The position numbers and the translations under genes were made by a program. A stretch of 64,000 nucleotides of DNA from positions 19,532 through 83,531 of the forward strand of contig CANPXN010000007.1 in NCBI GenBank assembly GCA_947586185.1, written 5' to 3'. The notes under the pieces were generated by a model, which saw nothing but the letters and a program-made list of their open reading frames with translations, was not told the DNA's origin and searched no databases. The DNA is from an uncultured Clostridia bacterium. GTDB lineage: Bacteria > Bacillota > Clostridia > Oscillospirales > Ruminococcaceae. Of this stretch, positions 33,900 to 37,186 are shown one piece after another. Position 1 is the first letter of the stretch, and every line of letters starts with the position of its first letter.

Positions 33900-33920
33900 A
33901 AAAGAATGAGAGTGATAAAA

Positions 33921-34574
33921 ATGAGGATCAGATGTAAACCGTGGGCAAAGCCGGAGCTTGAAGCATGCAGTTTCTGCATAAATGCTCCGGAAAAATTAAA
34001 AGGAAAATGGAATCAGGAATTTGGAAATGGAAAGCCTGTGTATCTTGAACTGGGATGTGGCAAAGGTGGTTTTGTTTCTCAGGCAGTATTAAGATATCCG
34101 GATGTGAATTACATAGCGGTTGATATAAAAAACGAAATGCTTGTTCTTGCCAAGCGAAAGATAGAAGCAGCTCTTAATAGTAATGACATGTCAGCTGATC
34201 AGGTAAGAATATTCATAAAAAATATAGAAAATATCGGTGATGTCTTTGCACCGGAGGATAATATTTCAAGAATAAATATTAATTTCTGTAATCCATGGCC
34301 GAAAACCAAGCATAAAAAAAGAAGACTTACTCATTACAGACAGCTTGTAAAATACAAAGAATTTTTGAATGGTGAATTGTGGTTTAAAACCGATGATGAC
34401 GATTTGTTTAATGAATCCTTTGATTATTTTGAACAAGCTGGATTTGATATAAAATATAAAACATATGATCTTCATAACAGTGGATTTGAAGAAAATATTA
34501 TTACTGAGCATGAAGAAATGTTTACTAAGGAAGGAAAGAATATTAAATTTCTAATAGCGGTACCTCGTAAATAA
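33921..34574 (+). CDS. trmB: tRNA (guanine-N7)-methyltransferase
   Basis: TrmB makes m7G46 in tRNA. The SAM site YLELGCGKGGFVSQA is near residue 40, VDIKNEM follows, and the family signature INFCNPWPKTKHKKRRLTH is at about residue 120. The ATG at 33921 gives the typical start MRIRCKPWAKPELEA; the ATG at 33906 lacks a ribosome site ahead of it, while GAGAG lies before 33921. It is 14 bp from the GH59-like gene downstream, so the two are likely cotranscribed. Confidence 0.94.
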   Translation: MRIRCKPWAKPELEACSFCINAPEKLKGKWNQEFGNGKPVYLELGCGKGGFVSQAVLRYPDVNYIAVDIKNEMLVLAKRKIEAALNSNDMSADQVRIFIKNIENIGDVFAPEDNISRININFCNPWPKTKHKKRRLTHYRQLVKYKEFLNGELWFKTDDDDLFNESFDYFEQAGFDIKYKTYDLHNSGFEENIITEHEEMFTKEGKNIKFLIAVPRK

Positions 34575-34588
34575 TTAGGAGTGAAAAC

Positions 34589-37054
34589 ATGAGTTATAAG
34601 GAGATTTTAATAGACGGATCAAAAGTCGTCAGTCATACATATAGAGGATTTGGCGCAATAATTGACAATAATTTATCAAAGCTTCTTGTGGATTATAAAT
34701 TAAAGAATCCAGATTCATACAACGAAATAGTTGACTTGCTTTTTAAGAATAGTTACGGAGCATCTCTTTCCCATATAAAAATTAAGCTGAACATGGATTC
34801 CTGTTTTTCTTATGATAATGAGGTAAATGTAAAAGGTATACCTGTATTTATACTTGCAGCAGATGCAAGAAAGGTTAACTCTGGTATCACAGTGGATCTT
34901 ATGCTTTGTGAAAGTACTACTTTACCAAAAGGTGACAGCAGCTATAAAATAATGGCTAAGTGCTATACTTCATTTATAGATATAATTGATGCTATTTATG
35001 ATATATATGGTATAAAGATCAACTATATTAGTATTGGTATAAAATCAATAAAGGATATAGGATATGACTGGATCATATATTTATCTGAAAGGCTTAAACG
35101 TGAGCCTGTGCTCAGATATGATTACTCAGCAATCAAGATGGTTTTATATTCTGATAAAGAGATGTCAGAAGCTTCTGAAAAAATGCTTAATAGCATACAA
35201 TTAAGAAATTCAATTGACATATTGGATATTAATATGATATGTATAAATGAGGATATAAAAACTCTTAATGAAAAATTTGATAAAGAAATTTGGTATCATG
35301 AATGCAGCGGAAAGGATACAGGTTATGATTCATGCGAGTATGAAACGGATTGCCTTTCATCTTCTATAAATGAAATAGCAAAAAGCTGCCGTATCGGTAA
35401 TGCTTCTATGTATGAATTTAAAAATGCAATTGTGGCAAACTATGACTGTAAAGCTTATCAGAGAAAGTGCTTTATTAACGCAGAAAAACCATGGTCTGGA
35501 TATTATACTATTGAATCGTGCCTTTTCAGTACAGCACATCTTTCTCATTTTATAAAATCCGATTGGAAATATGTAAACACTGCCTGTGATAAAGTCGCAG
35601 CTTTTATATCAGAAGAGGGGGATTATACTTTAATCTTTACAAATAAAAGCAATGAACATGAAAAATACCGTATATATGTAAAAAATACAGAAAAGTCTGA
35701 TAATTATGTTTACTGTGTGGAAACAAGAGGTCCTGAACACGGAGAAGCATACAATTCAAAGTGGTTTGATGTTATTAATAAAATAATTCCTGCTAAGGAT
35801 GAAGACAGGAATTTCTATGATATAACAATAAAGGCTCATTCTATACTGACATGCACCACTCTTGATGTTACACATGTAAATGGAATTAATGCTGTATCTG
35901 AGTGTAAAAAATCTGATACATTTCTGGAGCTTCCTTATTATGAAAAGCTGGCTTATTCAGAGGAGACCTTCAAAAAGCATAGAAATTTACCGTTATATAT
36001 GTTGTCAGTGAATGATGCTTTTGAAGCTGTAAAGGAAAATGAAAAATATATTTTGCAACAAAAGCTCATTTCATGTAAATCAAATGAAATTTATTCATCA
36101 TTGATCTTTGGTGACGATTCATGGTCTGATTATTGCGTATGCGCTGATATAAAATTTTCCGAATATTCCGATGATAATTATGCTGGAATCGGATTACGAT
36201 GCAATACAATTACAGCATCTGAAAATTCTTTAATATATGGCTTTAAGCTTATGCTGAGCTCGTTGGGTAAATGGCAATTTATCTATATGAACGATATTAT
36301 CAATGAGGGCAATTCCGATATTTTAGAATGGAATAAGGTTCAACTGTACGCAAAGGGTAATAAAATATTATCTAAAGTAAATAATATAGATGTTTATGAA
36401 TATGAAGTGGATATTCCGATGCATGTTTCAGGACGTGTAGCGCTCTTTAGTTCTATGCATAAAAATTGCTTTTGCAACATCGATGCTATGCCTTTGTCCG
36501 GCAAGTCATCCTATGTAAAAAGAGTATGTTGTCTTGCTGATTCATTTGTATACACAGGGAGCTGGATAAAAAATGAAGCCAGGGGAGTTGTGCTTCATGA
36601 TAATGTAAATAAATCTTCTGAAACTTCATTTTCTTTTTCTTTTTTTGGTACAGGATTTGCATTTACTGGTGAAGCTTACGACTTGAAAATAAAGTTGGAA
36701 GTTGACGGTAAAATTGAAGCAGCAGGTATGTCTATTGATCACTGTGGTTTTGATCAGGCATTTTATTATCAATATGACCTTGAAAATACAGAACATATTG
36801 TTAACGTTACTATACAGTCCGGCTCACTTACGCTTCACAGTGCTGAGGTTATTTCTGAGTCTAATGATTTAAAAACAGTGGCTAAATACAAAGACGATCA
36901 AAAATCGAATGGCAAATTAATATCTGACAGCGGAAAAAGCAAGAAAGTTAAAAAAAGTACATTGTTTATTGGAGCCGGACTTGCTGCTGCGGGCGCTGGC
37001 CTTGTGATAGCATCAAAAATAATGAGAAAATTTTCGAAAAAGCTGGACAAATAG
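34589..37054 (+). CDS. GH59 (galactocerebrosidase)-like protein, intracellular, tail-anchored, probably lacking the acid/base residue
   Basis: An 821-residue protein whose N-terminal part follows the galactocerebrosidase family: a GFGAI...LLVDY...FKNSYGASLSHIKIKL block at residues 20-72 and EKPWSGYYTIESCLFSTAHLSHF near residue 298, which parallels the QEPWSGHYVVxSPIWVxAHTTQF block of GALC. A LamG-like region (about 500-640) matches the GALC C-terminal lectin domain. Where GALC has the acid/base motif WNE, this protein reads GIKS; the nucleophile region reads IWYHECSG, keeping a glutamate. There is no signal peptide; a hydrophobic segment at about 789-808 is followed by a basic tail. Function unknown. 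Confidence 0.7.
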   Translation: MSYKEILIDGSKVVSHTYRGFGAIIDNNLSKLLVDYKLKNPDSYNEIVDLLFKNSYGASLSHIKIKLNMDSCFSYDNEVNVKGIPVFILAADARKVNSGITVDLMLCESTTLPKGDSSYKIMAKCYTSFIDIIDAIYDIYGIKINYISIGIKSIKDIGYDWIIYLSERLKREPVLRYDYSAIKMVLYSDKEMSEASEKMLNSIQLRNSIDILDINMICINEDIKTLNEKFDKEIWYHECSGKDTGYDSCEYETDCLSSSINEIAKSCRIGNASMYEFKNAIVANYDCKAYQRKCFINAEKPWSGYYTIESCLFSTAHLSHFIKSDWKYVNTACDKVAAFISEEGDYTLIFTNKSNEHEKYRIYVKNTEKSDNYVYCVETRGPEHGEAYNSKWFDVINKIIPAKDEDRNFYDITIKAHSILTCTTLDVTHVNGINAVSECKKSDTFLELPYYEKLAYSEETFKKHRNLPLYMLSVNDAFEAVKENEKYILQQKLISCKSNEIYSSLIFGDDSWSDYCVCADIKFSEYSDDNYAGIGLRCNTITASENSLIYGFKLMLSSLGKWQFIYMNDIINEGNSDILEWNKVQLYAKGNKILSKVNNIDVYEYEVDIPMHVSGRVALFSSMHKNCFCNIDAMPLSGKSSYVKRVCCLADSFVYTGSWIKNEARGVVLHDNVNKSSETSFSFSFFGTGFAFTGEAYDLKIKLEVDGKIEAAGMSIDHCGFDQAFYYQYDLENTEHIVNVTIQSGSLTLHSAEVISESNDLKTVAKYKDDQKSNGKLISDSGKSKKVKKSTLFIGAGLAAAGAGLVIASKIMRKFSKKLDK

Positions 37055-37072
37055 CAAATAGTGTGATATAAT
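37044..37072 (+). promoter_or_regulatory. SigA-type promoter of the pyr operon
   Basis: TGGACA (37044-37049, inside the end of the upstream gene) and TATAAT (37067-37072), 17-bp spacer. Confidence 0.75.
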
Positions 37073-37084
37073 AATTAACAATAT

Positions 37085-37186
37085 AACCTTTAAGTTGATC
37101 CCGTGAGATTGACAAGGTATGCTTCATGGATAGCTATAGCTATAATCATATCGCTTATCTGTCAATTGACAGGTAAGCGTTTTTTG
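37085..37186 (+). promoter_or_regulatory. PyrR-binding attenuator
   Basis: CCTTTAAGTTGATCCCGTGAGATTGACAAGG (37087-37117) has the conserved PyrR-binding hairpin pattern (ATCCnGnGAG loop). A terminator CGCTTATCTGTC / GACAGGTAAGCG plus a T6 run lies at 37152-37186, and the central sequence can form the alternative antiterminator. UMP-bound PyrR would favour termination before pyrR. Confidence 0.88.

Follow-up and report, generated by a model that had tools for sequence, protein, structure and literature searches.

Why should a gut bacterium of the Ruminococcaceae encode, directly behind a tRNA methyltransferase gene, a relative of the lysosomal hydrolase galactocerebrosidase (GALC), the enzyme defective in human Krabbe disease, and what might such a protein do if its active site is incomplete? 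The question arises from an open reading frame in a 64,000-nt stretch of DNA (the window), which an earlier note had described as a GH59-like protein lacking the acid/base glutamate and a signal peptide, with its fold held on the cytoplasmic face by a C-terminal membrane helix. A sugar-binding or moonlighting role, possibly linked to trmB, was suggested there, and a profile search against GH59 and a genome survey of the trmB linkage were proposed. The frame is present at 34589-37054 (+) and encodes 821 amino acids; its features and those of trmB are collected in Table 1.

Fold and active site of the window protein

The assignment to GH59 was borne out by several approaches. In a Pfam profile search the protein matched PF02057 over the entire profile (E=3.9e-40; 138.4 bits, against a cut-off of 27 bits), and phmmer aligned it with mouse GALC (4ccc) at E=1.3e-10. 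An AF2 model built with 39 homologues (mean pLDDT 81.5, pTM 0.84) shows eight barrel strands, a beta-sandwich, a lectin-like domain, one further beta domain and a terminal helix, and its top PDB matches by Foldseek are the GALC entries 4ccc, 5nxb and 3zr5 (E about 1e-37; TM-score 0.83 by target length). The C-terminal LamG domain of the earlier note is retained with a qualification: a lectin-like domain is seen in the model and PF21708 is clear in relatives (1.2e-7 in L025, 3.2e-9 in L026), but the match in the window protein itself is below cut-off. The protein shares with GALC (PDB 3zr5/4ccc) the order and fold of TIM barrel, beta-sandwich and lectin domain as well as the nucleophile position, whereas it has no signal peptide, carries a C-terminal membrane helix and an extra beta domain, and has lost acid/base and contact residues. 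It is a GH59/galactocerebrosidase homologue and, by the missing acid/base glutamate and neighboring asparagine, not a working member of the family.

Table 1. Coordinates in the window of trmB and of the GH59-like gene with its domains and key codons
Feature	Position	Strand	Evidence
trmB, tRNA (guanine-N7)-methyltransferase, first gene of the conserved pair	33906..34574	+	PF02390 E=1.1e-27; 14 nt upstream of GH59 gene
GH59-like pseudoenzyme (by alignment), 821 aa, without signal peptide, predicted C-terminal membrane helix	34589..37054	+	profile, phmmer, model, Foldseek
GH59 TIM barrel, residues 18-319	34640..35545	+	PF02057 match; eight strands in model
Ser153 codon at acid/base position (GALC E182), Lys152 before (GALC N181)	35045..35047	+	alignment to intact relatives and GALC
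Glu238 codon, retained nucleophile position (GALC E258)	35300..35302	+	alignment
Beta-sandwich domain, residues ~331-430	35579..35878	+	model; well conserved within genus
Lectin-like domain, residues 505-620, degenerate Glyco_hydro_59_C	36101..36448	+	PF21708 E=0.0087 here
Additional beta domain, residues ~655-757, after lectin domain	36551..36859	+	model strands 653-756; conserved in relatives
Predicted C-terminal membrane helix, residues ~790-812, basic flanks	36956..37024	+	hydropathy 1.99; motif KKSTLxxGAGLAAAGxG conserved in genus

In GALC, E182 is the acid/base and E258 the nucleophile, and the galactose contacts listed include W135 and T93 (PMC4445328). Catalytic positions were set by aligning an intact relative, L025, to GALC, and the losses were read by comparing the window protein with 29 intact relatives and with GALC; E171 and E257 of L025 match the GALC glutamates in 'WNER' (E182) and 'WSSED' (E258). 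By this alignment, on which the acid/base assignment rests, the glutamate is replaced by S153 (codon TCA at 35045) as the earlier note had claimed, the preceding asparagine (GALC N181) by K152, the equivalent of W135 by C107, and the His-Tyr closing strand six by Asn-Met; the Ser/Thr contact loop carrying the T93 equivalent is deleted, and E238 is kept at the nucleophile position. Most of the active site thus appears lost, and because several pocket residues are missing together, we infer that ordinary hydrolysis by the window protein is unlikely. An enzyme of altered chemistry, in which Glu238 would work with another residue or with water for proton transfer, is improbable. The glutamate aligned with E258 does persist both here and in L103, a member in which the active site was lost independently, but the other pocket residues named above are gone from the window protein, no glutamate adjoins the acid/base position in its sequence, and in the closely related L026 the nucleophile is missing as well. 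The suggestion of a GALC-like fold with a sugar-binding or moonlighting role can accordingly be kept in modified form: the protein still carries the nucleophile but is likely to lack catalysis and to serve for binding or as a scaffold.

Whether the pocket has changed ahead of the rest of the protein was evaluated against 29 intact relatives. The window protein keeps 28 of the 52 barrel positions invariant among them and 23 of 31 outside the barrel, and its losses show no significant concentration in the pocket (P=0.13). In L103, on the other hand, four of five catalytic or contact sites are lost, against 11 of the 52 invariant barrel sites (hypergeometric P=0.005), and therefore in that protein the pocket was altered earlier than the scaffold.

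The trmB-GH59 pair

The genome survey showed a linkage to trmB that is wider than had been guessed. GH59 matches occur in 92 of 398 genomes of the family, and of 82 GH59 frames read at their loci, 21 lie directly downstream of trmB, none with a signal peptide. A scan of named genomes added 36 trmB-linked loci, again all without signal peptide, whereas none of 20 signal-peptide-bearing GH59 members was linked to trmB. Combined, these give 57 pairs in several genera, with 44 distinct trmB genes after removal of duplicates. A contig scan with the window protein alone as query returned no loci, and one with an alignment of intact trmB-linked proteins returned 70. Among the 44 pairs the flanking genes differ between groups and the order of trmB and GH59 is constant, the two reading frames often overlapping or nearly so; a chance neighborhood is ruled out, as the pair recurs at so many distinct trmB genes in varying surroundings. 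Phylogenetic trees unite the linked proteins in a single clade (100% support), which also takes in two members on contigs that stop short of where trmB would lie; Ruminococcus callidus ATCC 27760 (L136) belongs to it. Across 394 genomes of the order, no trmB-linked GH59 turned up beyond the family. The pairing is a conserved, operon-like unit, real and old. A dCMP deaminase-like gene, identified from a sequence motif only, stands just upstream of trmB in 23 of the 44 loci.

Several members of the window's genus have pyr genes downstream. In the window a near-consensus promoter-like site for these genes (TGGACA-17-TATAAT, 37044-37072) overlaps the end of the GH59 frame and is followed, before pyrR, by a terminator-like hairpin at 37152-37179. 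Such an arrangement would be expected of a pyr attenuator and probably marks the end of the trmB-GH59 unit. No known structured RNA from Rfam was found near the GH59 gene.

The possible functional link to trmB is not supported, as nothing ties the protein functionally to TrmB. We give the least credence to a protein that works with TrmB, for example as a membrane tether for this methyltransferase or for tRNA. Such a partnership would suit the order kept at 44 distinct trmB genes despite changing flanks and the close spacing of the frames, but one genome of the window's genus, G009, has trmB without the GH59 gene, no trmB-GH59 fusion was seen, and shared transcription with trmB, a housekeeping gene, suffices to explain the pairing. 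The GH59 gene is probably co-expressed with trmB and probably shares no pathway with it.

The predicted membrane tail and its orientation

Upstream of the ATG the frame stays open for just 6 codons (827 aa in all), and trmB stops 14 nt before that ATG, so there is no room for a signal peptide; an upstream start that would supply one is ruled out, and the claim that the protein lacks such a signal stands. Hydropathy of the N-terminus is 0.48. The C-terminal helix and basic tail also withstood examination, as a prediction: the segment at about residues 790-812 reaches a mean hydropathy of 1.99 across 18 residues and is bordered on either side by lysines, and a terminal helix is present in the AF2 model at low confidence. 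Identity to the window protein is about 50% in the tail of relatives against 24-35% in the lectin domain, and between the dead L026 and the half-barrel protein L035 the tail is identical at 21 of 26 positions compared with 42 of 167 in the lectin domain. By these identities few parts of the degenerate copies are as well conserved as the tail. No such tail module was found in other proteins of the window's genome.

The window protein is thus predicted to be tail-anchored. Its placement on the cytoplasmic face is only partly sustained: the lack of a signal peptide agrees with it, but since the helix is flanked by basic residues on both sides, orientation is presumed solely from the missing export signal. 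A protein exported by an unusual route, facing outward with its basic tail inside, is very improbable. The basic tail behind the helix would by itself favor a tail-inside arrangement, and bacterial proteins with such anchors may take either orientation (PMC3087755); however, no trmB-linked member has a signal peptide, many unlinked GH59 relatives have one, and basic residues lie before the helix as well as behind it.

In the R. callidus group (L029, L121, L124, L137, L180; L076, L127, L128, L177, L191, L194) an acidic, disordered C-terminal tail replaces the membrane tail. These tails end in conserved short motifs, such as MDMSxDExxxLL or FRPDFNIDIDI, which suggest docking to a partner.

An intracellular, tail-anchored state is not peculiar to the dead protein, as both properties are also found in intact GH59 enzymes encoded at this position. 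Intact trmB-linked members (L025; R. callidus ATCC 27760 L136) belong to the same clade, occupy the same site behind trmB, lack a signal peptide and in many cases have the same kind of tail helix; unlike the window protein, they have a complete active site (Trp, Asn-Glu, Ser-Glu), and in the R. callidus group the tail differs as described. No characterized intact trmB-linked member was found. We know of no bacterial tail-anchored protein with a glycosidase fold, and neither a tail-anchored bacterial glycosidase nor a trmB-GH59 pair was found in the open-licence papers searched. Bacterial tail-anchored proteins are already known as such, and those of Streptomyces share with the window protein the lack of an N-terminal signal and a single C-terminal hydrophobic helix, insertion here being predicted (PMC3087755).

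Repeated active-site loss and the proposed role of the protein

Most members of the linked clade keep both catalytic glutamates, still lack a signal peptide and in many cases have the tail helix, which argues that intracellular placement and the predicted anchor came first and that catalysis was lost later. Losses in the clade represent at least three events: at least one in the window's genus (window, L026, L030, L035, L036), one in L103 and one in L106. At the single locus in the window's genus, the protein is intact in L025 and L027, dead and full-length in the window and L026, and reduced to a half-barrel in L030, L035 and L036, and in G009 the gene is cleanly absent between its trmB and pyrR neighbors. 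The half-barrel proteins lack about 150-160 barrel residues and keep their place behind trmB and their tail; a model of L035 (pLDDT 81.4) matches GALC and, over part of its length, the carbohydrate-binding module CBM66. These deletions begin at nearly the same point, after strand three begins. Within the genus one or two losses are indicated, as the five degenerate copies fall together in the gene tree (support 99 and 88 in two trees) whereas a tree of neighboring housekeeping genes places L030 with intact L025/L027 (100/100); should L030 be the sister of these two, half-barrel deletions would have arisen twice in similar form.

Two further observations concern GH59 proteins with signal sequences or secretion. 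L104, L105 and L109 form a separate secreted group in which catalytic residues are also lost, and the window's own genome encodes a second GH59-like protein (L024:6-2408 (-), contig C49) with a signal peptide, a C-terminal membrane helix and both catalytic glutamates lost. A search of that genome found no intact GH59.

The main rival explanation is a decaying gene, for which catalysis became useless in the genus, constraint was lost, and a still-open frame persists without function in the trmB transcript. The succession of intact, dead, half-barrel and absent states at one locus is what decay would leave, and evolution is fast relative to neighboring genes: the window protein has a branch of 1.04 in the gene tree against a median of 0.18, and is 38% identical to L025 where the two trmB products are 80% identical. 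The long branch, the low identity and the absence in G009 all fit relaxed constraint. However, the frames of all degenerate copies remain open over 648-821 codons, start directly behind trmB and end in the same tail, and the window and half-barrel models are still confidently folded. L035 and L036, both without half of the barrel, differ at 0.403/0.320/0.615 of codon positions 1/2/3, an excess at third positions, and the independently dead L103 compared with intact L135 has a dN/dS of 0.16 (0.10 for intact L133 against L135), a between-lineage constraint that partly predates active-site loss. As read from these codon comparisons, coding constraint persists in the degenerate copies, and decay is considered rather unlikely.

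The reading that is modestly favored instead is that the window protein is tethered to the membrane and serves, without catalysis, as a GH59 scaffold or binding protein. Its ancestor would have been an intracellular, membrane-tethered GH59 enzyme, of the kind that many Ruminococcaceae encode directly behind trmB. The window's lineage lost its active-site residues (Ser now stands for the acid/base Glu, Lys for Asn and Cys for Trp, and the Ser/Thr contact loop is gone) and retained the GALC-like scaffold, beta-sandwich, lectin domain, extra beta domain and predicted tail anchor. The C-terminal helix would hold the protein at the membrane, presumably at its inner face, where the beta domains may bind a glycan, a glycolipid or a partner protein in a putative non-catalytic role. 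Galactosyl-diacylglycerol is not favored as a substrate, as PF06925 (the MGDG synthase family) has no match in the window genome; other enzymes could make such lipids. Chitinase-like lectins offer a parallel in sharing a glycosidase fold, a lost catalytic acid and a proposed binding role, but such pseudo-glycosidases, where known, are secreted, whereas the window protein is intracellular and membrane-tethered by prediction.

An intracellular, membrane-tethered GH59 protein at a fixed site behind a tRNA-methylation gene was not found in the literature searched. A tentative and somewhat doubtful extension is that the whole trmB-linked clade is a family of intracellular membrane-tethered scaffolds or glycan receptors in Ruminococcaceae, in which catalysis is dispensable and selection repeatedly discards the catalytic barrel and keeps the beta domains and tail. 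The passage from intact to dead to half-barrel to no gene at one locus in one genus, together with independent losses in related genera, provides a natural experiment on an enzyme becoming a binding protein or vanishing. Annotation at the level of the family would label all of these copies galactosidases and so overstate the galactoside metabolism of gut bacteria.
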